Assembly: GCA_024683485.1 (NCBI GenBank)
Contig: JAIKYD010000040.1
Location: forward strand, 1-64,000
DNA from: Saccharofermentans sp.
GTDB lineage: Bacteria; Bacillota; Clostridia; Saccharofermentanales; Saccharofermentanaceae
Reading direction: 5' to 3'
Length of the DNA stretch: 64,000 bases
Shown here piece by piece: positions 13,861 through 58,546 of this stretch; position 1 is the first letter of the stretch, and every line of letters begins with the position of its first letter. The notes beneath the pieces are model-generated. The model saw nothing but the letters and a program-made list of their open reading frames with translations. It made no database searches and was not told where the DNA came from. Both the position numbers and the translations under genes were made by a program.

Positions 13861-13912
13861 AGAACCGGGACAGGCTCTTCCGATTATCTAAAGCCGGCCC
13901 CGGTTCTTTTTA
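13861..13912 (+). terminator. Intrinsic terminator after the plus-strand aminotransferase
   Basis: AGAACCGGG...CCCCGGTTCTTTTTA; the 3' end coincides with the stop of the convergent sortase gene. Confidence 0.65.
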
Positions 13913-14629
13913 CGGTTTACAAACGACCACGAATTCTGTATTTCGCGGATAATATTTTCCGGTCAACGGGTCTTCTCCCCATCCGCATGCCGTAACGCAA
14001 AGTGTTTCTTCATCAAACGATTCCGGATCAAGATAAGGCATCAATTCCGAATCAGTAACATATAAAGTATCAACGATCCTGTATCTGTGCTGAATACCGT
14101 CTGTTGTCGTTACCAATACGGATTCCCCTATCATATCTGCAAGATATTGAATGGATCCGAGCTTTGTATCAAGATCACCGATCTGACGGTGACCAAATAG
14201 ATTACAAAGCCCGTCACCTCCGATATCAACAGTTCCGGGATATCTTCCGACCCCGTATCTCAAAGCATTGACTGAACAGGTATCCCATACCGGCTCCTCA
14301 ACATTGATGCATGGTATATCAAGGATCCCAAGTAAAGTAAGCGATTCATGTTCCAGAGAAAGACTGCTCATGTCCTTCATCAGTTTATCAAGACCTGCAT
14401 CAGTCTCTCCGTTCTCGCCTTCAACAGCAAGAGCATCAGTAACAGGAACCATAAAGGCAACGCTTTCTTTACCACCACTCTTGACCGTATCTTCCACCAG
14501 TTTAACAGCAGCTTTACTGTAATCCTTACGGACTTTGCCTTTTACCGGTTCAACCAGAGCAAGACAAAGACCGCATACCAAAGCAAATGCTAAAACAAGA
14601 GCGCCAATTACAGTAACAGCATTTTTCAT
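13910..14629 (-). CDS. Sortase family protein
   Basis: N-terminal TM anchor; catalytic-like His in LFGHRQ, Cys in TLCVTACGWG, Arg in YYPRNTEFVVVC. Directly downstream of a giant sortase-substrate gene. Confidence 0.88.
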   Translation of the reverse strand: MKNAVTVIGALVLAFALVCGLCLALVEPVKGKVRKDYSKAAVKLVEDTVKSGGKESVAFMVPVTDALAVEGENGETDAGLDKLMKDMSSLSLEHESLTLLGILDIPCINVEEPVWDTCSVNALRYGVGRYPGTVDIGGDGLCNLFGHRQIGDLDTKLGSIQYLADMIGESVLVTTTDGIQHRYRIVDTLYVTDSELMPYLDPESFDEETLCVTACGWGEDPLTGKYYPRNTEFVVVCKP

Positions 14630-14703: not shown

Positions 14704-17700
14704 TCATTCTTTATAACGCCTTCTCTTATTTGTCACTGTAAACCATGCCATTCCCAAAACAACCGCAGAAACCGTTATTACATAACCAGCAACAGAATAT
14801 GAAGGTATGATCCCTCCTGTCATCGGTCTGTAGTGCAATGTAACCGTCTGATCTTCGCTGTTAAGGTCCTCGTGGCTTGCAATCAGGATATCTTTAGTCT
14901 GGACTCCTTCCCTGATCTCGTCTTCAGTTGCAACATCGTATATCTTCTCGAAAACCACGATCCTGTCACCTTCTTCAAGACCTTCAGTCGTGAAGGAAAT
15001 CTCAACAGCTATCTCTCCGTCTGAAGCTTCAGGCATGAATTCCATCACGCTTATAACAGGCTGTCCAGCAACACAGATCTCACTTCCGTCCCTTTTACAG
15101 ACTGTTGCTTCCGCTCTATATTTGCTGCCTGGTTCAAGACCTGAATAAACGATAGTATCAACTATAGTGATCACACGTTCTTCCGTGGATTCAAGCCATA
15201 TTTCCTTTGCATTATTGATCTCAGCGCTCGTGGAGACAGACGGTCTTCTGACAGTCTGATCCGCATCTGCAATATCAGAATGAGCTGCAATAATGATACT
15301 TTCAGAATCTTCGTACAGTTCTTCGAAAACAACTATCGCTGTCTTCTCAAAAGGAACAGCAACATCAGCAAATGTTACATCCACTGTACCAGAAGCGACA
15401 CCGTTCATAACTTCAGCACCGGTATCCGAAGGTTTAAACTTAACAGACGCAGTATACGTTTTTCCCTCGCTGTCCTTATAGACTTCACCGTTCTCCGCGT
15501 TGTACAGAGTTCCTGTCAGAGTGTATTCACAGTCTGGAACAAGACCTTTATACGAGACAGTATCTATAACGGTCACCTTTTCGCTGTAAGTCAGATAGTG
15601 AGTGCCTGAATCAGCATCCCTTGCCATAGTACTGATCTCCGGAACCTTAGGCTGATCTTCCATATCCATTTCAGTCAGTTCATTTGCAGTGATACTGAAT
15701 TCATGTTCCGCTCCGTCAACAAAGAACCATTTGCCTGAACTGAGTTCCTTAGCATAGTAATCCCCCTCAGCAAGTTCAATACTCTTATCGCCTGATTTCC
15801 ATTCTTTGGAAGGTCTGATACCTGATGAATACTCAACATTGGAGATCTCTCCGTCTGAATTGAAAGTAACAGTACAAACATGAAGATCATTTTCTTTGTA
15901 ATAGATCCCGTACTGTGTTCCATCGAGGGAATGGAGCCCTGTAATGAGTCTTTCACAGTCAGCCGCCAGTTTTGACGGAGCGAAGAAACCAACCCTTGCA
16001 GGTTCCTTCATTACTATTTCTGAAGAAGATACGGCTTTATAGATCTTCTTGTCGTATATGCAGCCTTCCGATGCTGTTCCGTCATTATCAAAAATATAGA
16101 ACACAACCGGTTTATCCTGATCTGCAGCCAGATATCCTTCCGGAGCAGTCTTCTCGGTTACTCTGTATGTTCCGAGCGGAAGAGCACCCAGCGAAATGAA
16201 ACTGTTAAAGTAACCGCTTGTATCGGCAGCAGCAAGTGAATTAATATCGATCTGTAACGCTCCGTCTGTTTCCGAAGACAATTGAGATGTTGTAAGGCTG
16301 ACTGATACTTTGCTTTCTGAAGCATTAAGCTTAGGAAGATCTTCTTCTGTTCTGATATCTGTCCTGTCGAAGTATTCCACAGTAAACTCCGCTCCGGACA
16401 TCGTTTTTCCGGTAACGGCATTCCAGCCTGCCATATCACGTTTGACAACAGTCCAGCTGATATCACCGCTTACAGGCTCATCTTTAACCTTTATAGTTAC
16501 AAGATTGTCAGTCGCTTTATTCAGAACAACAGTATGTTTTGCCGGATCGATCTTATAACCACGGCCCGCTTTTATCTCACTGATATAGAGATCTGTCCCA
16601 TCGTCATCACTCAATGAATAAGGCGCCATGTTCCCATTCTGATCAAGCACAAAAGTATGAATAAGCTCATCATTACTCTTTCTGTACAAACCGTATGTAG
16701 TTCCTTCCAGACTGTAACATGCGTTGGCGCTTACTATCGCCGTATTGGTTGATGCCTTTTTGACAGACATCCTTACAGAAGTCTCATTAACAGCTGTAAA
16801 CGAGTAAGACTTATTCGTCCCTGCTTTAAAATCACGGTAGAAATATCCATCGCCCTGAGTCCAGCCATCAGGAACATCAAGTTTTATCCCGTTTACATCT
16901 TGTGTAGTCTCCCTGATCTGATATGAATGACCCGGAACAATTTCGATCTTGTTGCCCGGCAGCGAACTGTATCCGCTTGCAATATCTGACCAGATCACCT
17001 TGCATGAGACTCCGCTATCAGTATCACCCGGAACGGAAGCCTTGCCTTCAGCAACCTTGATGTCACTGGTTTTATCCCAAAGCTCGAAAATATAATCATA
17101 TCCTGAGAGCAGCTGATAATTTGCACCAAGTTTTTTGTTAAGTCTGAAAGAAGCCATCTGCGGCTGGTTGCTAAGTCTTATATATGAAGTATTCCCGTTC
17201 TTAGTTACAGTTACTTCTCCCGCACTGCAAGAAGCCGTTACCACACCTTTTGAACTTACATTTACTGTATAGATATTTTCATCAAGCTTATAACCTTTGC
17301 CAGCGGTAATTTCCTTCAGATAGTAAGATCTGTTATAAGCAGATGTAAATGCATCAGAAGAACCACCTTCATCACTAATAGTAAATGTTCTCAAACGGCA
17401 AGAATCTGCTTTGGCATTCTCCGGCGTCTCATACAATCCGTAAACGGTTCCTGACAACGAATAACAACTGTTATTATCAGTAACCTTTGCATTTGCCGAT
17501 TCTTTTGCAAGACTGACAACAGAAGTTCGTGGCACTTCAGTGACATTGACAATAACAGGATTTCCCTGCGTAACAGATGCTTTGCCTGAACCGGAATAAG
17601 TACTTACTGCTGCATTGCCGTCAGCACCAACTTCTATCTTATAAACCGATCTGTCCTGCAGGAAGCCGGTTGCCGCAACAGTCTCCTTAAGATAATAAGT

Positions 17701-20700
17701 ATTGCCGCATACAACCTCCAGAGTCTTATCCGCAGTTCCGTCACTTTTTATTGTAAATGTACCGGCAATATTCCCTTCCTGGAACAGAGCTTCTTTGGCA
17801 AGGACATACTCAGCCCCTGCAAGGTTATAAGCTTTATTTCCGCTAGAATAATCCGGATTGGATGAAACTTTGGTAAGGCTTAACTTTACTGAAGTACTGT
17901 TAGTAGCTGTAAATGAATACATCTGACCTTCATCTGCAGTAAAGGTATTATAAAAACAGGTCTTTCCGTGGACACTTCCCTTTGTCCAGTTTTTGGGAGT
18001 TTTCAGGATCCTTCCGTTAACCGAAAGAGTCGTCTCCAGGATCTGATAAGTATGTCCTGGAATGATGCGGAGCACGTTGCCGTCAAGCAAAGCATATCCG
18101 TTTTCAGTTGCAATATTTGACCAAACTACCGGAGTCAGTGTTTTCGAAGTTGCAGCAGACGGAACCTTAGCTTTACCGTCAGCAACTTTTATATCCGCAG
18201 TATTATCCCAGAGTTCGAAGCTGTATGTCTTTCCTGCAAGCAAACTTGCATTTATACCCAACTGCTTATTCAGACTGAACCCTGCCGTCTTAGGCGCATC
18301 AGTAACCTTAACGATCTTTACCGTACCGCTGTTATCAGCTTGAGCACCTTCATTAACCGATATGTTTCCTGAGGAACTGACCTTAACCATATAAACTTTC
18401 GTATCAAGCTCAAAACCTTTACCCGCTTTTGTTTCTTTCAGATAGTAGGTTTTACCGTAAGCGGTCTCATAAGAAGTGCCTGTCTTTCCTTCGCTGTTCA
18501 TAACGAATTCAGCAACTTTGCCGGTACCATCCGGCTTGGTGTAAAGCTCATATACCGCACCGGCAATATCATAATCATTGTTAGGCATGATCCTGCTGAC
18601 AGAAGGATCAGATGATTCCTTTGCTATGCTTATCTTTGTTGTCTTCGGCTGGTCCTTCACATTAACTCTTATAGGGTTTCCCTGTGTAACTGTCGCTTTG
18701 CCTGAACCTGATTGTGAACTTACAGAAGCATTGCCGTCAGGACTGATATCGATCCTGTATACAGTCTTATCAAGATTGAAACCTGTTGCCGCATGTGTCT
18801 CTTTCAAATAAAAAGTATTGCCGCAGACCACATTGACAGACTTGTCCGCAGTTCCGACACTATTCACCGTAAATATTCCAAGGACATTCGAAAAACCGGA
18901 ATCAGCAGATAATGAATACTCAGCACCTGCGAGGTTATAACTGCTGTTGTTATCCGAGATTGACTTATTATCGGAAACCTTGGTAATACTAAGCTTAACA
19001 ACAGTACTGTTCGTGGCAGTAAATGAATGTGTCTGCCCTGCATCTGCCGTAAATGTCAGATAGAAACTGTTCTTTCCGTGTACTGTTCCCTTTGTCCAGC
19101 CGGACGGGGTTTCAAGTATCCTGCCGTTCACAGAAAGCGTTGTCTCCATAATCTGATATCTGTGTCCGGGAATGATACGGAGGCAATTCTCCCCAAGCGC
19201 TGCATATCCGTCTGCGATATCAGACCAGATTACAGTCGTCATTGTTTTAGGATCTGCTGATGCAGATACCACAGATTTTCCTTCAGCCACTTTCACATTT
19301 GCAGTATTGTCCCAGAGTTCAAAACTGTAAGTCTTTCCTGCAAGCAAAGATGCGTTCGTACCCAGCTTCTTGTTCAGACTGAATCTGGAGATCTGGGGGA
19401 CATCAGATACCATAACGAGCTTGACAACTCCGCCATTATCAACTGCCGCACCGTTATTGACCGATATGGTTCCTGTGGAACTTACTTTAACAGTATATAT
19501 TTCCGGATCCATATCAAAGCCTTTACCGGGTTTTGTTTCTTTCAGATAGTATGTCCTGCCATATGCGGTTTCATAGGAAAAATCTGTTTTTCCGTCGCTG
19601 TTCAGGACAAATGCTGCAACCTTTCCCGTGCCGTCGGCATTGGTATAGAGTTCATACGTGCATCCGGTGAGATCGTAATCACTGTTTGGCATGTTGCCGC
19701 TTACTGATCTGTCAGATGAACTCTTGGCAATGCTAATTCTTGCTGTTTTCGGCTGATCCTTTACATTTACAATAACAGGTTTACCCTGTGTGATCTCAGC
19801 CTTTCCCGAACCTGAATCGGTGCTTACAAGAGCATTGCCGTCAGGACCGATCTCTATCTTATAAATAGATTTATCCATCTTGAACCCTGTTGCTGCTATA
19901 GTTTCTTTAAGGAAATACGTATTGCCGCAGACAACATTAAGGCTCTTATCAGCCGTACCGTCACTTCTCAATGTAATCGAACCGACAGTATATTCTTCCC
20001 GGAACGAATTATCTTTAGCCAGCACATACACTGCACCTTCAAAACTATAACTTCCGTTATTATCAGAGAGACTCGCGTTGGTCGAGGATTTGGCAATACT
20101 AAGCTTGACAGTCGTACTGTTCACAGCAGTAAACGAATAAGTCTTTCCGGCTTCTGCAGTGAATATTTTATTGAAGCAAGTCTTACCGTGGGCAACTCCC
20201 TTTGTCCAGTCAGCCGGAGTCTCAAGCACCCTGCCGTTTACTGATAATGTTGTTTCCATCACCTGATATATATGTCCGGGAATGATTCTCAGCTGATTAT
20301 CTGAAAGCAAAGCATATCCGCCTGCTATATCAGACCATACCACAGGTGTTAAGACAGTATCCGTCGTACCGGAAGGAACAGTTGCCTTTCCGTCAGCCAC
20401 TTTGACCTTTTCTGTATTGTCCCAGAGCTCGAAAACATACACCTTGCCTGCAAGGAGCTGATAATTAGTTCCAAGTTTCTTGTTCAGACTGAACTTTGCA
20501 GTCTGCGGAACGTCATTAACCTTCACAAACTTTACCGTTCCGCTGTTATCAACATCCGCACCGTTATTTACAGAAATCTTTCCGTCAGAACCAACCGTAA
20601 TTGTATAAAGCTTATTATCGAGATCAAATCCCTTGCCTGCTTTAGTCTCTTTCAGATAGTATGTTCTACCGTATGCAGTTTCAAAGGATGTATCTGTCCT

Positions 20701-23700
20701 TCCGTCACTCTTCATTACGAAAGATGCGGCTTTTCCAGTACCGTTAGAACCGGTATACAGTTCATAAGTTGTCCCCTCAAAATCATAGTCACTGTTTGGC
20801 ATAGTTCCGCTGACAGAAACATCTGATGAATTCTTGATCAGGCTTATTCTTGTTGTTTCGGGCTTATCCTTCACATTGATCATAACAGGATTGCCTTGGG
20901 TTACAGTTGCTTTGACGGAACCTGACTCCGTACTGACAACCGCATTTCCATCATTTCCGATAACGATCTTATAGACAGATTCATCAAGCAGATAACCTTT
21001 GCCGGAAACAGTCTCTTTCAAATAATAAGTTTTGCCGCAGATCACATTAAGCGTTTTATCAGCGGAACCATCACTTTTTAAAGTAAACGTTCCAACTGTA
21101 TTTGACTCTGTGAATGAAGGATCCCCTGCAAGAACGTACTTAGCTCCGGCCATATCATAAGAACTGTTGCCATTTGTAATTTTTGCGTCAGCAGACTGCT
21201 TCTTAATACTCAACAATACAGACGTGCTGTTTGTGGCAGAAAACGCATACGTCTTTCCTGCATTTGCAGTAAAAGTTCTGTAGAAGCAGAGCTTGCCGTG
21301 AACAGTTCCTCTTGTCCATTCAGCAGGTGTCTCAAGAACTCTGCCATTCACCGACAAAGTTGTCTCCATTACCTGATAAGTGTGACCTGGAATTATTCGC
21401 AGCAGACCTCCTGAAAGTGTTGCATATCCGCTTGCAATATCAGACCACACAACCGGTGTTAATGTAGTGTTTGTTGCATCAGCCGGAACAGATGCAGTGC
21501 CTGAAGCAGCTTTGATTCCCCTGGTATTATCCCAAAGTTCAAAGCTGTATGTTTTCCCTGCAAGCAAAGACGCATTTGTGCCAAGTTGTTTATTCAGGCT
21601 GAATTCAGCAGTCTGCGGGACATCCTTGACCTTAACGAGTTTTAATGAACCGCTGTTGTCTGCAACTGCGCCGTTATTTACAGATATAATTCCAGTGGAA
21701 CTCACTTTGACCGTATATGTTTTAGAATCAAGATCAAAGCCCTTACCGGCCTTTGTCTCTTTCAGATAGTAGGTTTTACCATAGGCTGTTTCAAAGCAAT
21801 CACTGGTCTTCCCGTCACTCTTCATTACGAATGATGCAACTTTACCTGTACCGTTTGAATTGGCATAAAGCTCATATGTCGTGCCTGCAAAATCGTAATC
21901 ACTGTTTGGCATGATTCCGCTGGCAGAGGTATCGGAAGAACTCTTGAAAATACTTATCTTTACTGTCTCCGGCTTATCCTTTACTCTGACAATGATCGGA
22001 TTTCCCTGTGTAACAGATGCCTTACCGGAACCGGAAGCAGTACTTACAGCCGCATTTCCGTCATTTCCAATAACGATCTTATATACAGATGTATCTTTTG
22101 CATAACCTGTACCTGTTGCAGTTTCCTTCAGATAATAAGTATTGCCGCAGACAACATTCAGCGTCTTATCAGCTGATCCATCGCTCTTTACTGAAAATGT
22201 TCCGAGTTTATTTGCTTCTGAGAAAGAAGCATCCTTAGCAAGCACATACTTTGTCCCTGCAAGATCATAACTTGAATTGTTATCTGATATGCCCGTATCA
22301 GATGATGATTTGGTAAGACTGATCTTAACAGATGTACTGTTTACAACCGTATAAGAATATGTCTTTCCCGCACTTGCCGTAAATGTCCTGTAAAAACAGG
22401 TCTTTCCATGAGCAGTTCCCTTTGTCCAGTCAGACGGAGTATTCAAACTTCTTCCATCTGCAGATAATGTTGTCTCCATCACCTGATAGGTATGACCGGG
22501 AATAATGCGCAAGCGGTTATTGGAAAGCGAAGCATATCCGCTTGCCATGTTTGTCCATACGACCGGTGAAGTTGTTTTGTCTGAAGCGTTAGCCGGAACC
22601 GTTGCTTTACCATCAGCAACTTTGACGTTTCCTGTATTGTCCCAAAGTTCGAAAACATATGCTTTGCCTGCAAGCAGCTGATAATTCGAGCCGAGCTGTT
22701 TATTCAGACTGAATTCAGCTGTCTGAGGAACATCCGTAACCTTAACGATCCTGACAGCACCTCCGTTATCCACAGAGGCACCGTTATTTACAGAAATAAT
22801 TCCAGTGGAACTCACTTTGACTGTATATGTTTTCGAATCAAGATCAAAACCCTTTCCTGCCTTTGTCTCTTTAAGATAGTAAGTTTTACCATAAGCGGTC
22901 TCGTAAGCTGTGTCAGTTTTGCCATCGCTCTTCATAACGAAGGTTGCAATCTTGCCGGTACCGTCCGCACTCTTATACAACTCATATGTCGTCCCTGCAA
23001 AATCATAATCGCTGTTTGGCATATTTCCACTGGCAGACAGATCCGAGGAACTCTTTGCAAGGGTTATCTTTGTTGTCTCAGGCTGATCTTTCACATTGAT
23101 AAGAATTGGATTGCCCTGAGTCACAGTTGCTTTGCCTGAACCGGATTTGGTACTTACTGTTGCAGTTCCATCTGAACCGATAACGATCTTATAAACAGAC
23201 GCATCTAGAAGATAGCCTTTTCCGGCTGCAGTCTCTTTAAGGTAGTATGCAGAGCCGCAGACCACGTTGACTGTATTATCTGCAGTTCCGTCACTTCCCA
23301 GACTAAAAGTGCCAGCAGTATTTTCATCTGAAAACGAATCATCTTTTGCAAGAATATACTTTGCACCTTCAAAACTGTATGAATTATTTCCTGCTGTAAT
23401 TGAAGTATTGGCAGAGGCTTTTGTAATCGTTAACGGAATCTCAAGGCTGTTTGTGGCTGAGAAAGCATGAGTCTGTCCAGCACTGGCAGTAAAAGTTCTG
23501 TAAAAGCAGGTTTTGCCATGAGCAGTTCCCTTTGTCCAACCTTCCGGTGTATCAAGGATTCTGCCGTTTACTGATAATGTTGTCTCCATTACCTGATAGG
23601 TATGACCCGGAATGATACGCAGCTGATTACCGGAAAGCTTGACATACCCTTCAGCTATATTGCTCCAAACAACAGGAGTAGATCTTGAGGAATTTGCAGT

Positions 23701-26700
23701 GGAAGGAACAGTTGCGTTTCCGTCAGCCACTTTCACGCCCCTGGTGTTGTCCCAGATTTCAAAAGAATAAGACTGTCCTGCGAGCAAAGGTGCATTGGTA
23801 CCCAATTGTTTTGACAGACCAAATCCAGCAGTCTGCGGAGAATCAGTAACCTTAACAAGTTTTACCGTTCCGCTGTTATCAGCAGTCGCACCGCTGCTGA
23901 CTGATATACTTCCTGTGGAGCTCACTTTGACCGTATATGTTTTCTCATCCAGATCAAAGCCCTTTCCTGCCTTTGTCTCTTTCAGATAGTATGTTTTACC
24001 GTAAGCAGTTTCAAAAGTTGTGTCAGTCTTGCCGTCACTGTTCATAACAAATGTTGCTGCTTTGCCGGTAAGGTCCGCATTCTTATATAACTCATAGGTT
24101 GTCCCCGTAAAATCGTAATCACTGTTTGGCATGGAACCGCTGGCAGAAACGTCAGACGAACTCTTGACCACACTGAGTTTTGTTGTCTTCGGCTTATCTT
24201 TGACATTAACCAGTATAGGATTGCCCTGTGTCACTGAGACTTTACCGGAACCCGAATAAGTACTTACTATTGCTTTTCCGTCAGTTCCTATAACGATCTT
24301 ATAGACCGATGTATCAATCAGATAACCTGTACCTGCGGAAGTTTCCTTAAGGTAATAGGTGTTCCCGCAGACGACATTCAAAGATCTGTTTGAAGTCCCG
24401 TCTGCTTTCACAGTAAAAGAACCAACATTGACCGAATCAGAAAATGAAGCATCTTTGGAAAGAACATATCTGGCTTCCTCAAGACTGTATGAACTGTTGC
24501 CATTTGTCTTATCCGGATCAGAAGACTGCTTCATAAGACTTAAAGGAACTGTGGTACTGTTAGTAACCTGGAAAGAATAAGTCTGTCCGGAATTAGCAGT
24601 AAATGTCCGGAAGAAACAGGATTTGCCATGCGCCGTTCCTTTGGTCCATCCTGACGGGGTTTCTATTTCCCTGCTGTTAACAGACATGGTTGTTTCCATT
24701 ATCTGATATGAGTGTCCCGGAATAATACTCAGCCTGTTATTCCCAGCCGGATAATAACCATTCACAGTATCAACAGAAGACCACAAAACAGATGTCGCAG
24801 ATGCAGATGTTGCAGAAGCCGGAACAGCAGCTTTACCGTCAGCCACCTTAATTCCAGAAGTATTATCCCAGAACTCGAAAACATACGTCTTGCCTGCCAG
24901 CAGCTGATAATTCTCACCTAACTTTTTAGTAAGGCTGAAATCAGCTGACACCACATCGTTTGTAACATCAAATTTATAAGAATGGTCAGCATTGGCAGTA
25001 AATGTTTTATAGAAATAATCTGTGCCCTGTTTCCATCCCGAAGGTACTTTAAGATCTCTGCCTCCCGCTGTAATAGAAGTCTCTCTTATCTCATAATCAT
25101 GACCAAAAATAAGTCCAAGATTTGTACCGGACAGTTTTTCGACATGAGCAGCACTGATCTTTATCCATTCGACCGGAACTGTTGTTGAACCATCAGCACC
25201 CGCAGGAACCGTGGCAGATCCCGTAGCTACCCATGTATCCAATGTTGTATCCCTTAAAATAAATGAATAAGTCTTCCCTGCAAGGATAACTGAATTACCG
25301 GGATCGATCTTTTTGGACAGTTCAAACGAAGCTGTCTTATTCTTATCAGCAACGTGGACTACTATAGGATTGCCGTTAGTCACCGTTGCGGTACGTGATC
25401 CGGAATATGTGCTGACTGTGGCTTTTCCGTTCGCAGCAATAACGATCTTGTAAACAGAATCATCCAGTTCGTAACCTTTGCCTGCAGTTATTTCTTTCAA
25501 ATAATAAGTGGTTCCGCAGTTTACATTAAGGTTTCCATATGAAGTACCGTCAGCTTTCATTGTGAATGATCCCACGACACCTGTATTAAGATCTGCACTT
25601 GTCGCAAGTGTATACTTTGCACCGGCAATACTGTATGAACTATTGCCGTCAGTAGCCGTCTTATTTGCCGAAGTCTTTGTTATCGTAAGAGGCACATTTA
25701 TTGAATTGGTTGCTGTAAACGGGCGAACGATTCCCGCAGCAGAAGTAAATGAATAATAAAAACACTGCTTACCATGTACTGTTCCCTTTGTCCATTCCGA
25801 CGGAACTTCAAGCTCGATTTCTCCAACAGACAAAGTGGTTTCCATTATCTGGTATGTATGCGAGGGAATCAGATCCAGCCTGTTGTCAGGAAGAGAATTA
25901 TATCCGCTTCTGACATTAGACCAGACAACCGGAGTGGATGTTGCACCGGTTGCATTCGAAGAAGTTGAAGCAACTCCATCTGCCACCTTTACACCGGCAG
26001 TATTATCCCAGAGTTCAAAATTATAAGAATATCCTCTGAGTATTGTATAGTTGGTGCCGAGTTTTTTATTCAGACTGATGATCATTCTGTCAGGAGAATC
26101 CTTAACATGAACGATCTTTGCCGTTGCACCGTCAACAATTACTGTTCCGGAACCGGAATCAGGAACAACATCAGCACCGGCACGTCCGTCTGAATAAACC
26201 CATATACGGTAGATAGTGTTGTCAAGCGCATATCCCGTTGGTGCTTTTGTTTCTTTCAGGTAGAAATAAGTATATCCCGGTGTTTCTTGAGAGACTTTAT
26301 ATGATGAAGTTGCATTTCCGTCACTGCCGATAACAAAAGTCGCTACTCTGTCACTGTCTTCAAGATAAAATACACCGTTGTTTTTGGAATAGTTTGAGTA
26401 AAGACTGTACTCTGCACCGGCTGTGCTGTAATAACCTTCATCCGTTGATGTAGAAGAATTTTTCGCAACAGTGACAGCCGTAGTAGCGGTAACTCCTCCG
26501 CGTGTAACTATCTGGAAAAAGTCATTATTAACATATCTTCCAAATGTATTACTGTATTCATCGCCGTTGAATTCGCTGCAGCGGTAGTATTCACACCACC
26601 ATCCTGAGAGTGTAACTCCGGGCAGTTCAGTCGTGCCCCTCCGGACACTCAATATATATTGAAAATATTCAGAAATAAGGCCACTGTCCCAGATTGAACT

Positions 26701-28488
26701 CGGAATATGTGAAGTATCGAAATAAAAAGTGTCATTCTCATAGTCGTATGCTGCACAACATATATAATGAGTAATAACATACATTGCTTTACGCATTTCA
26801 GTCTCATTATATTTATTTTTTATGGCACCGTCAGTGTCATGCTCTTTCCACCAGTTAACACCATATTCGTATAATGCTCCGGTTGGCCCGAAAGCACAGG
26901 CAGCCTGGGTACATTGTGCCCACGCAAGACTGCCTCCGACATATGCCTCATCGGGATCAGTATTGTCCTGCCAGTCGTACATGCTGTATGCATATCCCGA
27001 TGGAGCTTCCTTTGTCGTCTCCACGCAATACAATATATTGTTGTTCCAGTCTGCAGAATCAGAGCTTGAGAAAACACCTGCATATTTATCCGGACCTGAA
27101 CTGAACAGATCTGTCTGACCGTAAGCATCAGGCTCATATATAGTGATCGTATTTCCGGGAGAAGAATTGCCGTCCGTCACAAAGACGATCCCGTCATCTT
27201 CTGCCCTTACTGCCAGATAATACTGACTTTCTGTATATTCCACAGATGACGATTCAGGTTCAGACGGAGATATTGCAAGCTCAGCCTGCCTGCCGTCAAC
27301 GATCATGCCGAGGGTCTTTGCCGCAGCCACGGAAGTGGAATCAGCAGACACATAATAATCAACCGCATCACCGTAGTTGGAATCAGATCTCAAAGTAAGA
27401 TCACCGTTAAGCGCGCCAGCGGTAATAACGCTGCTGATACCTGCCGGAAGATACTTTGATGCATCCGCCCCATTATTTCCTGCCGATGCAACTATTGCCG
27501 CCTTTGTATTTTCGATAAGGGATATGAATGCATCATACCTGCCGGTATTTCTGATTGAAATAGCCATAAGGATATAATCAACGCCCATATCTTCAGCCAT
27601 CTGGACAGCTGCATAAACATCGGATATATTGCCCCTGCCATCATCACCGATTGCCTTAATCGAGATAATATAGGCATTATCTGTTTCATCCAGGATATAA
27701 CTGCACATTGATGTGCCGTGACCATTATTGTCGGTCACATCATCTCCTATAACAGAGTATGCTTCATTTGCGGTATTGGAGCCTGTATCAATTACTGCGA
27801 TCTTTACAGTTGCATCAGGAGCAGGATTCACATCAACCGTTTCAGTAACTGAATCACCACACACGTCCACTATTCCGTCAACTGCATACTCTAAACCTGC
27901 ATCATCTATCTCCATGACAGCTTTAGAACATGTATCACTGTCATCGAAAACAAGGATATAAGTGCCGTCATAATAAACGCCGTCTGTAACTTCGAGAGAA
28001 TTCAGATCTGTATAGGTGTCAACTATGATTCTCTGATAACCTTCCGGAAGCGAGGCAACAAGACTGTAGTACTCACTTGAAGAACCGGCAGTTGTGATCT
28101 TTCCTTCAATCTCACCCGATTCTGAATCATCCATTATTGCATCTGTGTCGTCAGGCTCTTGTGTTGTTTCCATCGTATCTGCCGTTACGGGTGTATCTGA
28201 CTCGTCATACGGCTTTGCAGTTTCAGTCACTTCCGTAAACTCTGCAGCTTCTGCTTTTTCTTCTTCGTCAGTTTCGATGGAATCTGACAGTTCGGATATA
28301 ATAATATCTTCGGGATCAGACAGTATCAGTTCATCCGTATCTTTCTGCTCTTCGTTATTTACTTCTTCTATTGGTGTTTCTTTATCTTCAGAAACAGCGG
28401 TGGCAAATGTGGTCAGTGTTGCCTGCAGCGGACTTAATGTCATTATGAAAGCCACAATTCCCGCAACGATTCGCTTTAATCTTTCCAT
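14704..28488 (-). CDS. Giant cell-wall-anchored protein: signal peptide, S8 subtilisin-like protease, many pilin/Cna-B (SpaA)-like repeats, two TQ/VaFE-like domains, RPMTG sorting signal
   Basis: S8 motifs VIDTGSN (Asp), NGHGTSM (His), VASAGNNGA (oxyanion Asn), STSVAAA (Ser); dozens of YYLKET...GYxLDxxVYKI motifs; FADVAVPFEKTAIVVFEELY...DADQTV and EGDRIVVFEKIY...SEDQTV; C-terminus YRPMTGG-hydrophobic-KRRRYKE. The ORF track starts at 28548; MERLKRIVAG at 28488 has an RBS (AAAGGAAA). Confidence 0.9.
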   Translation of the reverse strand: MERLKRIVAGIVAFIMTLSPLQATLTTFATAVSEDKETPIEEVNNEEQKDTDELILSDPEDIIISELSDSIETDEEEKAEAAEFTEVTETAKPYDESDTPVTADTMETTQEPDDTDAIMDDSESGEIEGKITTAGSSSEYYSLVASLPEGYQRIIVDTYTDLNSLEVTDGVYYDGTYILVFDDSDTCSKAVMEIDDAGLEYAVDGIVDVCGDSVTETVDVNPAPDATVKIAVIDTGSNTANEAYSVIGDDVTDNNGHGTSMCSYILDETDNAYIISIKAIGDDGRGNISDVYAAVQMAEDMGVDYILMAISIRNTGRYDAFISLIENTKAAIVASAGNNGADASKYLPAGISSVITAGALNGDLTLRSDSNYGDAVDYYVSADSTSVAAAKTLGMIVDGRQAELAISPSEPESSSVEYTESQYYLAVRAEDDGIVFVTDGNSSPGNTITIYEPDAYGQTDLFSSGPDKYAGVFSSSDSADWNNNILYCVETTKEAPSGYAYSMYDWQDNTDPDEAYVGGSLAWAQCTQAACAFGPTGALYEYGVNWWKEHDTDGAIKNKYNETEMRKAMYVITHYICCAAYDYENDTFYFDTSHIPSSIWDSGLISEYFQYILSVRRGTTELPGVTLSGWWCEYYRCSEFNGDEYSNTFGRYVNNDFFQIVTRGGVTATTAVTVAKNSSTSTDEGYYSTAGAEYSLYSNYSKNNGVFYLEDSDRVATFVIGSDGNATSSYKVSQETPGYTYFYLKETKAPTGYALDNTIYRIWVYSDGRAGADVVPDSGSGTVIVDGATAKIVHVKDSPDRMIISLNKKLGTNYTILRGYSYNFELWDNTAGVKVADGVASTSSNATGATSTPVVWSNVRSGYNSLPDNRLDLIPSHTYQIMETTLSVGEIELEVPSEWTKGTVHGKQCFYYSFTSAAGIVRPFTATNSINVPLTITKTSANKTATDGNSSYSIAGAKYTLATSADLNTGVVGSFTMKADGTSYGNLNVNCGTTYYLKEITAGKGYELDDSVYKIVIAANGKATVSTYSGSRTATVTNGNPIVVHVADKNKTASFELSKKIDPGNSVILAGKTYSFILRDTTLDTWVATGSATVPAGADGSTTVPVEWIKISAAHVEKLSGTNLGLIFGHDYEIRETSITAGGRDLKVPSGWKQGTDYFYKTFTANADHSYKFDVTNDVVSADFSLTKKLGENYQLLAGKTYVFEFWDNTSGIKVADGKAAVPASATSASATSVLWSSVDTVNGYYPAGNNRLSIIPGHSYQIMETTMSVNSREIETPSGWTKGTAHGKSCFFRTFTANSGQTYSFQVTNSTTVPLSLMKQSSDPDKTNGNSSYSLEEARYVLSKDASFSDSVNVGSFTVKADGTSNRSLNVVCGNTYYLKETSAGTGYLIDTSVYKIVIGTDGKAIVSTYSGSGKVSVTQGNPILVNVKDKPKTTKLSVVKSSSDVSASGSMPNSDYDFTGTTYELYKNADLTGKAATFVMNSDGKTDTTFETAYGKTYYLKETKAGKGFDLDEKTYTVKVSSTGSISVSSGATADNSGTVKLVKVTDSPQTAGFGLSKQLGTNAPLLAGQSYSFEIWDNTRGVKVADGNATVPSTANSSRSTPVVWSNIAEGYVKLSGNQLRIIPGHTYQVMETTLSVNGRILDTPEGWTKGTAHGKTCFYRTFTASAGQTHAFSATNSLEIPLTITKASANTSITAGNNSYSFEGAKYILAKDDSFSDENTAGTFSLGSDGTADNTVNVVCGSAYYLKETAAGKGYLLDASVYKIVIGSDGTATVSTKSGSGKATVTQGNPILINVKDQPETTKITLAKSSSDLSASGNMPNSDYDFAGTTYELYKSADGTGKIATFVMKSDGKTDTAYETAYGKTYYLKETKAGKGFDLDSKTYTVKVSSTGIISVNNGASVDNGGAVRIVKVTDVPQTAEFSLNKQLGSNYQLLAGKAYVFELWDNTGNVKVADGKATVPANASDKTTSPVVWTNMASGYASLSNNRLRIIPGHTYQVMETTLSADGRSLNTPSDWTKGTAHGKTCFYRTFTASAGKTYSYTVVNSTSVKISLTKSSSDTGISDNNSSYDLAGTKYVLAKDASFSEANKLGTFSVKSDGSADKTLNVVCGNTYYLKETATGTGYAKDTSVYKIVIGNDGNAAVSTASGSGKASVTQGNPIIVRVKDKPETVKISIFKSSSDTSASGIMPNSDYDFAGTTYELYANSNGTGKVASFVMKSDGKTSDCFETAYGKTYYLKETKAGKGFDLDSKTYTVKVSSTGIISVNNGAVADNSGSLKLVKVKDVPQTAEFSLNKQLGTNASLLAGKTYSFELWDNTRGIKAASGTASVPADATNTTLTPVVWSDIASGYATLSGGLLRIIPGHTYQVMETTLSVNGRVLETPAEWTRGTVHGKLCFYRTFTANAGKTYAFSATNSTSVLLSIKKQSADAKITNGNSSYDMAGAKYVLAGDPSFTESNTVGTFTLKSDGSADKTLNVICGKTYYLKETVSGKGYLLDESVYKIVIGNDGNAVVSTESGSVKATVTQGNPVMINVKDKPETTRISLIKNSSDVSVSGTMPNSDYDFEGTTYELYTGSNGTGKAASFVMKSDGRTDTSFETAYGRTYYLKETKAGKGFDLDNKLYTITVGSDGKISVNNGADVDNSGTVKFVKVNDVPQTAKFSLNKKLGTNYQLLAGKVYVFELWDNTEKVKVADGKATVPSGTTDTVLTPVVWSDIAGGYALLSDNQLRIIPGHIYQVMETTLSVNGRVLETPADWTKGVAHGKTCFNKIFTAEAGKTYSFTAVNSTTVKLSIAKSSTNASLSDNNGSYSFEGAVYVLAKDNSFREEYTVGSITLRSDGTADKSLNVVCGNTYFLKETIAATGFKMDKSIYKIEIGPDGNALVSTDSGSGKAEITQGKPVIVNVKDQPKTARISIAKSSSDRSVSGNMPNSDYDLTGCTYELYTNADGTGKVAAFVLNSDGKTDFSYETAYGRTYYLKETKPGKGFDMDPEIYTVKVSSTGTISVNNGAAVDNGGVVKLVMVSDVPQISRFSLNKKLGTNASLLAGKTYSFELWDNTANVKVAEGKSVVSASADPKTMTTVIWSDIADGYAALGENCLRIIPGHRYQIMETTLSVNGRILETPSGWTKGTVHGKNSFYLTFTADAGQTHSFTATNSTVVKLSITKVSDNKSISDNNSSYNLAGAEYSLSADSGFSNVLGIFTVNSVGTADKSVNVVCGNTFYLKETHAATGFNLDKTVYRIDISPDGNASVSSQSGSGKATVTQGNPIRVNVKDQPKTTKISIAKESSDPSVSRIMPNNDYDIAGAVYELYTKPDGTGKVAEFVMNSEGKTGTSYETAYGKTYYLKETKAGKGFELDTKVYMVKVSSSGNISVNEGAQADNSGTVKIVKVTDAPKTAGFSLNKQLGINASLLAGKTYSFELWDNTADIKVADGKAKVPSAATSKTLTPVVWSNIATENGYALLDGNVLRIIPGHTYQILETTLSVNGRILKTPKNWTKGSVHGKTCFYNTFTADEGQMYSFTATNSTSVKLSLTKVSSNPDYSSGNKAYNLAGAEYVLAKEALFQEGNIAGTFTIKSDGTADKTLEVVCGNTYYLKETVAATGFLQDRSVYKIEVGADGNAAVSTYSGSGKASVTQGNPVIVNVTEVPRTSVVSLAKESANAKVTDNNSCYSLSGTVYGLYETPENAKADSCRLRTFTISDEGGSSDAFTSAYNRSYYLKEITAGKGYKLDENIYTVNVSSKGVVTASCSAGEVTVTKNGNTSYIRLSNQPQMASFRLNKKLGANYQLLSGYDYIFELWDKTSDIKVAEGKASVPGDTDSGVSCKVIWSDIASGYSSLPGNKIEIVPGHSYQIRETTQDVNGIKLDVPDGWTQGDGYFYRDFKAGTNKSYSFTAVNETSVRMSVKKASTNTAIVSANACYSLEGTTYGLYRKSNDELIHTFVLDQNGNMAPYSLSDDDGTDLYISEIKAGRGYKIDPAKHTVVLNKATDNLVTIKVKDEPVSGDISWTVVKRDMAGWNAVTGKTMSGAEFTVEYFDRTDIRTEEDLPKLNASESKVSVSLTTSQLSSETDGALQIDINSLAAADTSGYFNSFISLGALPLGTYRVTEKTAPEGYLAADQDKPVVFYIFDNDGTASEGCIYDKKIYKAVSSSEIVMKEPARVGFFAPSKLAADCERLITGLHSLDGTQYGIYYKENDLHVCTVTFNSDGEISNVEYSSGIRPSKEWKSGDKSIELAEGDYYAKELSSGKWFFVDGAEHEFSITANELTEMDMEDQPKVPEISTMARDADSGTHYLTYSEKVTVIDTVSYKGLVPDCEYTLTGTLYNAENGEVYKDSEGKTYTASVKFKPSDTGAEVMNGVASGTVDVTFADVAVPFEKTAIVVFEELYEDSESIIIAAHSDIADADQTVRRPSVSTSAEINNAKEIWLESTEERVITIVDTIVYSGLEPGSKYRAEATVCKRDGSEICVAGQPVISVMEFMPEASDGEIAVEISFTTEGLEEGDRIVVFEKIYDVATEDEIREGVQTKDILIASHEDLNSEDQTVTLHYRPMTGGIIPSYSVAGYVITVSAVVLGMAWFTVTNKRRRYKE
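17150..24955 (-). repeat. About 7 tandem copies of a ~1.11-kb three-module (A-B-C) coding cassette inside the giant adhesin
   Basis: A = LNKxLGxNxxLLAGKTYxFELWDNT...TNST; B = SSY(D/N)LAGAKYVLAKD...VCGNTYYLKET...TQGNPI; C = MPNSDYDFAGTTYELY...ETAYGKTYYLKETKAGKGFDLD. The MPNSDYD-encoding sequence recurs near 18.58, 19.69, 20.80, 21.91, 23.02 and 24.13 kb. Confidence 0.9.
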
Positions 28489-31969: not shown

Positions 31970-34114
31970 TTAACCGGGTTGGTTGGTCTGATTGTTCGGA
32001 TCTTCTGTATTCTCCGGCGGTGGCGGATTCGTCGGCGGTGGCGGAACCGGTGTATCTGTCGGCGGCGGAGGAACAGGCGTGTCCGTCGGCGGAGGAGGAA
32101 CCGGTGTCGGTGTATTCGTCGGCGGCGGTGTCGGCGTGGAAGTCGGAAGCGCAGAGAATACCGCCGTAAATGTTGTCGATTCCTTAACCACAAATGTATA
32201 TGTCGTGGAAAGTGCTATCTGGTTGCCGAACTGATCGAGCCAGCAATCGAACTTGAAGCCTGTTGCTGGAGTTGCCGTAAGCGTAACCTGCGTATCAAGC
32301 TGATACTGTCCGCCTCCGGATACCGTACCGCTTCCGGTCATAAGAACTGTAATCTCAGCCTGCGGAGGAGTAGGTGTAGGTGTTCCTCCGTTCTGATAAT
32401 CCTCATGCGTTCCGATATAGAGCTTGACCGTGGATTTTCTTGCAACGGTCGTGCCGGACACAGGATTCGTAAGAATTACGAACTGCTGGCTTGCAGGGAG
32501 TGCACGCACTTCAGGCGAACCTTCGACAGTATAGTTCAGATTACTCTCCTGAAGGATATCGGAAGCCTCCGATACACTCTTTCCGACAACATCCGGAACA
32601 ACGCTCGATGTTGGTTCAGTCGCATAAACGATGATTATCGTATCACCTCTTAAAACCTGGGTGTTCGCCTCAGGTTCGGTCCTGATAACGAGTCCCGGCT
32701 CAACCGAATCTGACGGTTCCGGACGCAGTGAGAACTTAAGGCCCAGGTTCTGCAGGGACTTAAAGCAGTTCTCATAATTGGTGTTTGCATAGTCCTGAAG
32801 GATAATATATTCATCAGCTGAAGATACAGTAATGACAAGATTGCTGATCCTGTTCGCTGTTGAGATAACGACTCCCTGCTGGATGCTCTGTGCAATAACA
32901 ACACCTGGATCATATGCGTCAGTTACCTTATACTCAACTGTATAGAAAACCTGGGCAGCATCGAGTTTTCTTATTACTTCGTCAGCTGTCAGTCCGACGT
33001 AATTCTCAACCTCATAATCCGTGTTCTGTTCGATCTCAGTGGCATTGCCTACAGCTCTTATGACAAGAATTCCTATACCGATAAGAACACCGACTATAAC
33101 TACAATGATAAGAGCCAGCAGGACATTATCCCTGAATCTTGAGATACGCCTCGATTCAGCGCTCTTCTCTATCTCAGAGATCTTCTCATATTCAGGATCC
33201 TGCCTGAATGAAATGTTTGTATCCGTGCTCGTATTCTTATCGGGAACATTTTTGATCACACCATAGATACCGTTCGGATCCACGAGCAGTGAATCAAGTT
33301 CGGTTACAAGCTGACGCATCGTCTGATAACGTCTCTCAGGTGATTTCTGCATACACTTTGCGATAATGGAATCAAGACCTTTCGGTATTCCCTGCATGAG
33401 GGAAGAAGGCACCGGAGGTGTCTCCTGAAGATGCTTGACTGCAATAGCAACATTGGAATCGCCGTCAAAAGGAAGTCTTCCTGTTACCATCTCGAAAAGC
33501 GTAACGCCCAGAGAATAGATATCTGACTGAGGACCAACATTGCCTCCTCTTGCCTGCTCCGGTGAGAAATAATGTACCGAGCCCATCTGGACACCGGTCA
33601 TAGTAATGGTGGTTGAAGATGCCGCACGCGCAATGCCGAAGTCGGTTATTTTCGCAATACGGTCACGCGAGATAAGAATATTCTGTGGCTTGATATCACG
33701 GTGAACTATACCGTTCTGGTGGGCATAATCCAAAGCCAGACCGATCTGGATCACGATCGGCACAGCATTGCGCCAGTCAAGATGTCCGTTCTGGTTAATA
33801 AGATCCTTTACTGTGATGCCTTCGATATACTCCTGAACGATGTATCTGAAGTTGCCCTCATGACCTACACCGTACACCTTAACGATATTTGCGTGATTCA
33901 GGGAAGCAACTGACTTGGCCTCCGCATCAAACCTTCTGATAAAATCCTCATCAGACGAGAATTCCGGCTTCAATATCTTTATGGCAACATTAGTGCCTGT
34001 ATTCATATCGATTCCGAGATAAACGTTGGCCATACCGCCAGAGCCTATAAGCTTGACGATCCTGTACTTATTCGCAAATATCATGCCCTCAGGGCCGTGA
34101 ACCTGATTTGCCAT
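31970..34114 (-). CDS. prkC: PASTA-domain Ser/Thr protein kinase with an InlB-B-repeat-like module and Pro/Thr-rich tail
   Basis: IVKLIGSGGMANVYLG, IVHRDIKPQNIL, ITDFGIARA, TM helix LLALIIVVIVGVLIGIGILVI, PASTA-like repeats, then GSGTVSGGGQYQLDTQVTLTATPATGFKFDCWLD and (PVPPPPTDT)n. Confidence 0.93.
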   Translation of the reverse strand: MANQVHGPEGMIFANKYRIVKLIGSGGMANVYLGIDMNTGTNVAIKILKPEFSSDEDFIRRFDAEAKSVASLNHANIVKVYGVGHEGNFRYIVQEYIEGITVKDLINQNGHLDWRNAVPIVIQIGLALDYAHQNGIVHRDIKPQNILISRDRIAKITDFGIARAASSTTITMTGVQMGSVHYFSPEQARGGNVGPQSDIYSLGVTLFEMVTGRLPFDGDSNVAIAVKHLQETPPVPSSLMQGIPKGLDSIIAKCMQKSPERRYQTMRQLVTELDSLLVDPNGIYGVIKNVPDKNTSTDTNISFRQDPEYEKISEIEKSAESRRISRFRDNVLLALIIVVIVGVLIGIGILVIRAVGNATEIEQNTDYEVENYVGLTADEVIRKLDAAQVFYTVEYKVTDAYDPGVVIAQSIQQGVVISTANRISNLVITVSSADEYIILQDYANTNYENCFKSLQNLGLKFSLRPEPSDSVEPGLVIRTEPEANTQVLRGDTIIIVYATEPTSSVVPDVVGKSVSEASDILQESNLNYTVEGSPEVRALPASQQFVILTNPVSGTTVARKSTVKLYIGTHEDYQNGGTPTPTPPQAEITVLMTGSGTVSGGGQYQLDTQVTLTATPATGFKFDCWLDQFGNQIALSTTYTFVVKESTTFTAVFSALPTSTPTPPPTNTPTPVPPPPTDTPVPPPPTDTPVPPPPTNPPPPENTEDPNNQTNQPG

Positions 34115-44608: not shown

Positions 44609-45634
44609 TCAGGTGTATCTGTCAGAAGATCCGTATTCGCTGATATCCAGTATTACGCCCTGAACAAAGGCATATCCCTTGAGTTCTTCGAGTGCTTCCT
44701 TGCTGACCGGACTCGAATTCTCTGGTATTATAACCGAAATATGTCTGGAATCAACGCGGTCCACACTGTAAGTCTTTCCGTTTATTACCGCAGACTGTGG
44801 CTCAAATCCCTTTATCGCCCTGATATCCTCTTTTATCTCCTTCTCCACATGCGAGATATCCTGATAATACGGTGACGTGAGGTCAATACTCCTGATAGCA
44901 GTAATCTCACCACCGTTGACGGAATCAATAACCGGAAATGTCTTTGGAAGATTAGCCCCGTATTTTTCCCTGAAAGCATCTCCCCTGTCAAAATTGCTCA
45001 AAGACCATATTGCGTCCTTTTGCTTTTCCTCATTGCCGGATTCCGCAAGAGCCTGGGCTTTGAGCGTAAGGACAGGATCTCCGTACAACGGGATCACCGA
45101 ATAGATACTCCTGGTCTTTCTTCCCGCAATCGTAACAACCGAATATTCAGTGGTTACCTCAATAATATGATGTTTCTCATTTACAGCGAAAAAGACATCA
45201 ATATCATCAGGCACAAAAAACTCTGAACCCCCGTTGCGTTCAATACAGGCATTCCGTATCTGCTCTTCCATAGTATGCGAGAACAATCCCTGAAGGATAA
45301 GTTCTTTTACAGTATTTCCGGTAGCGTTATCTGTCCCCAATCCGACTGAAATGACTTTTGAGATCACTTCCGCCCCTCTGGTGCCGCCAATTCCAAGATC
45401 AGGAAAAGCATTAAGAGCTGCTGACATAAAGTCAGTTGAAGGTATGGACACAGGATAAAGGAGCGACATCTTCTCACATGTCTGTTCGCAAGACCGTCTC
45501 ATAAGTATATCCGTCCGGTAAAGATCTATAGAACTTATGACGGATGCAAGAAATACAAGCGTTATGGTAAACGCTACAGCTGCTTCTAGTGTAATCTGTC
45601 CCTTTTTATTCTTTCTGCGGCTCATCATAGTCAT
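44609..45634 (-). CDS. TadE-like pseudopilin-type protein
   Basis: RRKNKKGQITLEAAVAFTITLVFLASVISSIDLY N-terminal TadE-like helix. Confidence 0.6.
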   Translation of the reverse strand: MTMMSRRKNKKGQITLEAAVAFTITLVFLASVISSIDLYRTDILMRRSCEQTCEKMSLLYPVSIPSTDFMSAALNAFPDLGIGGTRGAEVISKVISVGLGTDNATGNTVKELILQGLFSHTMEEQIRNACIERNGGSEFFVPDDIDVFFAVNEKHHIIEVTTEYSVVTIAGRKTRSIYSVIPLYGDPVLTLKAQALAESGNEEKQKDAIWSLSNFDRGDAFREKYGANLPKTFPVIDSVNGGEITAIRSIDLTSPYYQDISHVEKEIKEDIRAIKGFEPQSAVINGKTYSVDRVDSRHISVIIPENSSPVSKEALEELKGYAFVQGVILDISEYGSSDRYT

Positions 45635-45640
45635 GCCCTC

Positions 45641-47005
45641 TCATTCGTAAAGCTGATAGGACTTCTCCACTGTATATTCTTCCCCTCTGAAATCCGCTCC
45701 CAGAGCAACTCCTTTATAAAGGGTTCCGTAATCTCTTATGAGGATTTCATGGCTTCTTTCCAAAAGTTCATTCTCTGGTGTAAGAAAGCTGAACAGGTAA
45801 AGGAAATCTCTGTAACTGAATGTGACAAATTCCACATCATCGTATTCAAAAATGACTGCCCGCTGACCGTTTACGACGAGCAGGAAGTCCTTCATCGACT
45901 GAACTATGGCACAATAATAGGTAAGACCGGCTGCGATCAGCTTCGGGTCGATATCCACCGTTCCTTCGCTGACAGCAAGTATTATCACTGATATGATCTC
46001 GCCAAGGATCTCCATTGTGTTCCGGAATCGCTCATCTGCAAAGTCTTTAAGCATATTGGAGACTATGAGCACCTGAACCATCAGATATTCGATCTTCAGA
46101 CAGGCAGGAAATGTATCGAGACCTGTAATGATATACTCGGAATCAGCTTTCTTGGAATCGTGGACCGACTTAAACTCGGTTCCGGTTATCGAACAGTCAC
46201 CGTCAGGGGCAAACCAGCAGTCGAAATTATAAGCACAATAATGAGCGGTATTCATATGCGTCATCATGAGATCAGAATTATCTGACAATGCATCCATAAT
46301 GTCCTCAAGTCTCGATACCGTTGTCAGAATAGAATCCCATTCGGCGACATCAACATCAATGTCAAGTTCAAAATCAGAAATTGCATCCTTGTAATCCGAG
46401 CTAAGTGAATCCATATCTGCCGCTTCACCGATCAATTCACCGATATTCAGCATATCTCCTGCTTTCCCGATCCATTCTTCAGCAGATTCAGATCCCTTTA
46501 TCATCTCTGACACATAACCGGCTGCAGGGCTTTGCATATATTCACCGATCTTGGAGAATATGCCACGGTCATCAAGTTCAAGTATCATTTCCTTATAGCT
46601 GTCAACAACGGATTTCATAGCTATCCCGGTACCCCTGTAGAAATAGAATGAATTGATTGCCTTCTTCAGATCATCTGCGGTAAATTCAGACATCCCGGTA
46701 ATATAAAGCACAGATGTTGACGAAAGACCATTTATCTCCAGCGCCTTGCGGAAACATTCATCATCAATTTCATCAAGTGTAAAAGCGTAAACCCCGTAAA
46801 CATCAAATAGCTGCCTGTCATAATCAGACATGATAGTATCGATCTGCGTCTTAAGAGCAGTATTGACACTCAATGCGTAATCAAGATTCCATACAAACGC
46901 TGCAAACGTACATTCAATAAGGATCAATGCGGAAAGGATAACCGCCAGAAAAACAGAGGAGGCACCATGCTTATTTCTTCTGATTTTATTAGTCTTCCTC
47001 ATCAT
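45641..47005 (-). CDS. DUF5702-like secreted/membrane protein
   Basis: NKHGASSVFLAVILSALILIECTFAAFVW...QIDTIMSDYDRQLFDVYGVYAFTL. Confidence 0.65.
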   Translation of the reverse strand: MMRKTNKIRRNKHGASSVFLAVILSALILIECTFAAFVWNLDYALSVNTALKTQIDTIMSDYDRQLFDVYGVYAFTLDEIDDECFRKALEINGLSSTSVLYITGMSEFTADDLKKAINSFYFYRGTGIAMKSVVDSYKEMILELDDRGIFSKIGEYMQSPAAGYVSEMIKGSESAEEWIGKAGDMLNIGELIGEAADMDSLSSDYKDAISDFELDIDVDVAEWDSILTTVSRLEDIMDALSDNSDLMMTHMNTAHYCAYNFDCWFAPDGDCSITGTEFKSVHDSKKADSEYIITGLDTFPACLKIEYLMVQVLIVSNMLKDFADERFRNTMEILGEIISVIILAVSEGTVDIDPKLIAAGLTYYCAIVQSMKDFLLVVNGQRAVIFEYDDVEFVTFSYRDFLYLFSFLTPENELLERSHEILIRDYGTLYKGVALGADFRGEEYTVEKSYQLYE

Positions 47006-51524: not shown

Positions 51525-51560
51525 TAGCCATACCTCAAAAACAATTGATAAGACTTTTCT

Positions 51561-51607
51561 ATCATAACAGACTTGTGTTCCATAAAAAACAATTTGCCGG
51601 AACACAA
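51561..51607 (-). promoter_or_regulatory. Putative promoter (-10 TATGAT) and 9-bp inverted repeat upstream of the tandem-TIR gene
   Basis: -10-like hexamer TATGAT (forward ATCATA, 51561-51566); perfect arms TTGTGTTCC (51573-51581) and GGAACACAA (51599-51607). Confidence 0.45.
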
Positions 51608-58532: not shown

Positions 58533-58546
58533 TGTCACTAATCTCC

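Follow-up and report, generated by a model that had tools for sequence, protein, structure and literature searches.

The gene at positions 14704-28488 (minus strand) of the window, by which we mean the whole stretch of 64,000 nucleotides of Saccharofermentans sp. DNA that was analyzed, encodes a giant protein of 4,594 amino acids in which a compact subtilisin-type (S8) domain with its own propeptide is followed by a probable thioester domain (TED), a very long stalk of pilin-like modules, and a wall-anchoring signal. On balance, we read this protein as a sortase-anchored, single-chain fibril of the TIE type, in which the TED stands behind a pro-subtilisin that mainly cuts itself and in which the second head can be exchanged. 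This reading builds on the architecture of the protein, its conserved catalytic and thioester residues, its synteny, and the variation of its heads and stalk, all of which were observed.

The reading frame starts with an ATG at 28488, preceded on its 5' side by AAGGAA, and runs to a stop codon at 14704 without any internal stop. The single uninterrupted ORF of 13.8 kb claimed in a preliminary description of this DNA was thus recovered, on the minus strand, while a plus-strand reading of 14704-28488 was ruled out, as the interval is full of stops in that direction. From the N-terminus, the protein consists of a signal peptide (aa 1-31), an acidic segment (aa 32-129), the propeptide (aa 130-210), the S8 domain (aa 224-398), a variable linker, and the TED (aa 440-670), followed by 29 CnaB/SpaA modules, two TQ domains (aa 4283-4519), RPMTGG at aa 4554, a hydrophobic segment, and a basic tail. 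The signal peptide (MERLKRIVAGIVAFIMTLSPLQATLTTFATA; 28396-28488, minus strand), which was read from the sequence by inspection, and the acidic Glu/Asp/Thr-rich segment (28102-28395, minus strand) had both been described before; in contrast, the TED (aa ~440-670) and the propeptide (aa ~130-210) had been missed, as had the fact that the S8 domain is shortened. No paralogues of the gene were found in its own genome, and the relatives of the host are Saccharofermentans and Ruminococcaceae/Clostridiales bins, mostly from the rumen or gut of ruminants.

The S8 domain (27295-27819, minus strand) gave no match when the 4,594-aa protein was scanned with Pfam at full length, but the isolated segment matched PF00082 (5.6e-10, 39.4 bits, cut-off 21.8), and a family profile matched subtilisins in the PDB, with 1dbi at 1.7e-18. 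The motifs expected of a subtilisin fold follow each other in order, i.e., DTG with the Asp, HGT with the His, the oxyanion Asn, and TSxA with the Ser. As the preliminary description had noted, Asp, His, Asn, and Ser elements are present; each member of the tetrad (Asp234, His257, Asn338, and Ser386) is found in 24/24 aligned sequences, an alignment with a mean column identity of 41% and 27% invariant columns. The nearest NCBIfam models to the segment are of the QhpE/PatA type, i.e., short S8 processing proteases, yet the segment remains far below their cut-offs, and the annotated neighbors show the genetic surroundings of neither family.

The region around the serine reads STSVAAAK, without the full GTSMA-P-H segment, and retains the T-S-x-A-x5-G spacing of TSMASPHVAG. 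While the canonical S8 proteins that the profile also matches have the sequence SNYG...APG..I.......SGTSMASPHVAG, the shortened family reads SNYGxxVDYYVxAxSTSEAAAxxLG, so that about 18 residues before the serine are deleted with the T-S-x-A-x5-G spacing retained. Furthermore, the Pro-His after the serine and the C-terminal part are absent, and the domain stops soon past the serine helix. The possibility that Ser386 is a chance serine, with the true serine region lost, was discarded, since comparison with the canonical relatives reveals the clean removal of a loop with the spacing kept.

The segment ahead of the S8 domain (27859-28101, minus strand) is assigned as a subtilisin-type propeptide on the basis of its predicted fold and its conservation. 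Predicted structures of segments, for which the preliminary description had proposed AlphaFold as a check, resemble pro-subtilisins in the S8 part and class II TEDs, with weak E-values, in aa 440-670. For propeptide plus S8, the mean pLDDT is 72.7, and the best PDB matches include unprocessed pro-subtilisins and PCSK9 with its prodomain; in other families, too, homologous propeptides stand ahead of canonical S8 domains. The propeptide is retained throughout the family, and its last strand leads into [VIL]-Cys-Gly, with Cys210 conserved in 23 and Gly211 in 20 of the 24 sequences, past which conservation collapses and the next ten residues are nearly free. An alignment set by eye against the end of the BPN' propeptide places Cys210 at P1, which gives the predicted cleavage site.

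The assignment of aa 440-670 (26479-27171, minus strand) as a divergent TED, based on sub-threshold TED_2 similarity, homologues, two invariant residues, and fold matches, is very probably correct. The segment itself reaches 18.9 bits against Pfam TED_2, under the cut-off of 27, but homologues aligned over their full heads exceed this cut-off (L043 of G063, 32.3 bits; L044 of G030, 32.7 bits), and their TED_2 matches fall inside the region matched by the family profile. Cys488 and Gln659, the putative thioester residues, do not vary across the 14 rows of alignment A4; Cys488 lies in YCVE, which fits the motif [YFL]C-hydrophobic-hydrophilic, and the 171 residues between the two equal the spacing of Cys296 and Gln467 in the TED of SaTIE (PMC6194298). 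The third TED motif, TQxx-hydrophobic-W, is half kept as TQAACAF, with the Gln present in most rows and the Trp absent. The AlphaFold model of the segment (pTM 0.78) was compared with the PDB using Foldseek: class II TEDs (6fwy and 6fwv), whose fold joins a beta-barrel to a three-helix bundle, take the top three places, with low TM-scores. TEDs are the only fold matches with E<1, although E-values of 0.013-0.08 do not, taken by themselves, reach significance. A PDB sequence-profile search with the region returned nothing at E<=1.

The stalk (15673-26478, minus strand) was delimited by Pfam matches, Glu anchors, and module alignments. On the full protein, Pfam SpaA scored 2.7e-135 (441 bits) over 18 stretches, and NCBIfam matches comprised VaFE_rpt and SpaH/EbpB pilin models. 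Where about 28 pilin/Cna-B-like modules had been proposed, we count 29 CnaB/SpaA-like modules by their Glu anchors, 27 of which are recognized as CnaB-type by the models used for the relatives. The modules mostly follow each other in the order C-A-B, with a supermodule period of about 370 aa. Of the isopeptide triad, the Lys and the catalytic Glu show no substitution in the alignments of the A, B, and C modules, and the Asn/Asp is found in nearly all modules. The seven supermodules share 55-71% aa identity and 60-72% DNA identity and therefore represent old duplications and no assembly artifact. The stalk is followed by two TQ domains of the Thr-Gln ester-bond (VaFE) type (14932-15642, minus strand; Pfam TQ 1.1e-42, 145.8 bits, above cut-off, two stretches), in agreement with the two TQ/VaFE-like domains described previously.

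The previously described sorting signal is likewise complete, consisting of RPMTGG (aa 4554-4559), a hydrophobic transmembrane-type segment, and a KRRRYKE tail (14707-14829, minus strand). An adjacent sortase gene is located at 13910-14629 (minus strand; PF04203 9.4e-10), with the His, Cys, and Arg present in GHR, TACGW, and PRN, and its best subfamily match is class D, below cut-off. Among the homologues, all nine that carry [RS]PxTG[GE] have the sortase gene nearby, directly beside them in eight cases and about 3 kb upstream in the ninth; none was found within the examined flanks of the eleven that lack PxTG or carry PPKTGD, VPQTGN, IPQTGV, or IPKTG, although these cases are phylogenetically non-independent. 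Five of the eleven stand at the same syntenic locus, where motif and sortase are missing together.

The gene belongs to a conserved order, PknB-RsgA-RPE-TPK-DUF5688-[giant gene]-(sortase)-aminotransferase-EAL, and homologues at the same place in other genomes measure 4,140, 3,052, 2,290, and ~1,400 aa, so that the stalk at this locus spans about 1.4k to 4.6k aa. Its composition varies as well: the 4,140-aa homologue (G029) has at least 10 CnaB-type and at least 12 TQ modules and the 3,052-aa homologue (G017) at least 4 and at least 9, respectively, minimum counts obtained with the same models that give 27 CnaB-type and 2 TQ modules for the giant protein. At the same locus in G071, the ORF (L032) stops at 1,354 aa inside a stalk module without an anchor, which may represent an interrupted gene or an assembly error.

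Within the family, an S8 head was found in 32 of 117 genomes. The TED described here was found in 13 of the 117, all from one genus, and all 17 TED places lie with an S8 head; two more TED_2 proteins of the genus (G029 contig 1 and G041) lack S8. Outside the genus, no combination of S8 and TED was detected with the TED profile in a search of 190 genomes of the order, nor in 392 genomes of the class and 399 of the phylum, where matches cover S8 only. Furthermore, S8 and TED on one chain were not found in the literature searched, which leaves most subscription journals uncovered. The combination of S8 with a long pilin-like stalk, which had been called unusual, is indeed unusual, with S8 plus TED found in one genus of those sampled, but it is no one-off, given the number of family genomes with an S8 head.

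In G039 and G086, the protein at the same locus keeps the S8 domain and carries an NlpC/P60-type domain where the TED would be, and NLPC_P60 scored above its cut-off in L047. L113 and L115 are proteins at the locus of the giant gene that combine S8 with an NlpC/P60-type domain (DCMRYVNLAYA ... HAAIY) instead of a TED. In a tree of the S8 domains, the proteins with a TED fall on two branches that lie apart, and those with NlpC/P60 do not share a single branch either; this scatter indicates that the S8 domain has stayed in place while the head after it was exchanged.

In the working that we propose, the adjacent sortase would act at RPMTGG and attach the protein to the wall by its C-terminus, and 29 isopeptide-type and two ester-type modules would build a stiff stalk, which we estimate at ~100 nm or more. 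At its far end, the TED, if its thioester forms, would bond covalently to an amine of its target, be it a surface or a polymer. The compact pro-subtilisin would mainly cut itself, removing the propeptide at the predicted [VIL]-Cys210-Gly site, and this self-cleavage may mature or uncap the tip; the S8 module would thus be the constant front piece behind which TED or NlpC/P60 is swapped as second head. We favor such a self-processing cap because of the swapping of second heads, the strict conservation of the tetrad and the propeptide end, and the minimal size of the S8 domain. Against it, the propeptide is of a kind typical of secreted subtilases that later act on other proteins, and the parts of a canonical subtilase that the S8 domain lacks (the pre-serine loop, the Pro-His, and the C-terminal part) may have taken even self-cleavage with them. 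A more specific version, in which the S8 domain is an autoprocessing safety cap that masks the TED or NlpC/P60 domain during secretion and anchoring until a single self-cleavage frees it, is a plausible but tentative suggestion.

The preliminary description had placed a protease at the tip of a long stalk, acting on host or neighbor surfaces. The wall anchor, the N-terminal S8 domain, the isopeptide/ester-type stalk, and the complete tetrad all support the first part; the attack on surfaces leaves out of account the TED directly behind the S8 domain, the shortening of an S8 domain that has its own propeptide, and the swapping of the second head, which a maturation or cap role fits at least as well. 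In its present form, this alternative holds that S8, freed of its propeptide, remains at the end of the stalk and cuts proteins of the host, the feed, or neighboring cells, while the second head (TED or NlpC/P60) holds on to that surface or attacks it as well. The complete, invariant tetrad and the resemblance of the propeptide to those of secreted subtilases speak for it, as do the precedents of wall-anchored S8 proteases in streptococci and lactic acid bacteria (PMC9082167, PMC7783315) and of stalked "fibrillar enzymes" (PMC9210967). However, the domain is shortened around and after the serine, and self-processing alone also explains the conservation of active site and propeptide; we therefore regard an attacking protease as rather unlikely, if a serious contender.

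It is also conceivable, with a still lower probability, that the S8 fold has no peptidase activity and has a structural or binding role, as a spacer or ligand site in an adhesin that works by its TED alone. The pre-serine loop, the Pro-His after the serine, and the C-terminal region of canonical subtilases are all missing, and a distant relative from another family (L107) has an Asp at the position of the oxyanion Asn (GAAGDDG). This is opposed by the invariance of all four active-site residues in 24/24 sequences, in an alignment with so few invariant S8 columns. The relative in question, from G366, is itself a giant wall-anchored protein (3,795 aa, LPSTGG) with the same shortened S8 domain, in which AGDD replaces AGNN, and with FctA/Cna_B/DUF285 modules after it.

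The host bin is a draft metagenome-assembled genome (MAG; 81.75% complete, 125 contigs, 5% contamination), and the exact repeat number of the gene is therefore provisional. Collapse or expansion of stalk repeats during assembly is unlikely, as the supermodules of ~1,110 bp show the low pairwise DNA identity given above, with 83% in the best common blocks. That the whole ORF is a chimera or a falsely expanded repeat, as a draft MAG with contamination might yield, is highly improbable, since about 10 other genomes share the gene order around homologues, another genome carries the 4,140-aa version, the stalk repeats are only 60-72% identical in DNA, and the frame is open from end to end.

Each part of the protein is known from other systems, and what appears to be new is S8 plus TED on one chain, a variant of the TIE adhesin. 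TIE proteins (BaTIE, SaTIE, EfmTIE86, CpTIE, and the SfbI group) likewise have a TED near the N-terminus, a CnaB stalk, ester domains, and a sortase anchor, but the giant protein differs in the pro-subtilisin ahead of the TED, the strongly diverged TED sequence, a stalk of 29+2 modules compared to three to six in class II TIE examples, and RPMTGG in place of the classical LPXTG. Most of what is known of TIE adhesins comes from pathogens, and their TED stands at a free N-terminus. With the cell-envelope proteases lactocepin/PrtP, C5a peptidase, and SpyCEP, the giant protein shares S8 and propeptide on a sortase-anchored surface protein; to our knowledge, these have a full-size S8 domain and neither a TED nor a CnaB/TQ stalk, while the S8 domain here is minimal. 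In the fibrillar enzymes of Monzon and Bateman (PMC9210967), an enzyme-type domain also tops a repeat stalk, whereas the giant protein combines an enzyme-type with a covalent-adhesive domain. Periscope proteins resemble it in having a surface stalk whose length is set by repeat number, but their repeats are highly identical and vary in number within populations (PMC9704523), while the supermodules here have diverged (55-71% aa identity) and length was seen to vary between species, in a comparison of one genome per species. Stalks of this kind are familiar, and the tip that joins a protease to a probable covalent grip was detected in one genus only.

Several other genes in the window, all on the minus strand, deserve mention. 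A TIR-domain protein (49533-51605; PF13676 5.6e-13, PADLOC ThsB-like 3.7e-07) overlaps by one base a neighbor that encodes 654 aa without a Pfam match (47569-49533), and the two possibly form a defense pair. Two adjoining ORFs of 341 and 454 aa (44609-47005) have no Pfam or PADLOC match. A choline-binding-repeat protein with DUF6273 (56691-58673) is encoded beside alpha-amylase and starch/glycogen synthase genes, and a PASTA Ser/Thr kinase (31970-34114) carries an extra InlB-B-type repeat (Flg_new_2) behind its PASTA domains.

Taken together, commensals of the rumen and gut place a pro-subtilisin before a probable TED and, at one chromosomal place, exchange this TED for a peptidoglycan-hydrolase-type domain. 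The locus also provides a natural series of stalks that differ in length and in their crosslinked modules and is useful for asking what sets the reach of an adhesin. If the S8 domain is a self-cutting cap, this would answer how a reactive thioester stays protected until it meets its target, by a maturation step that is testable. Should the safety-cap reading be true, one cap would serve chemically unrelated effectors and thus represent a general means of arming fibrils anchored to the wall.
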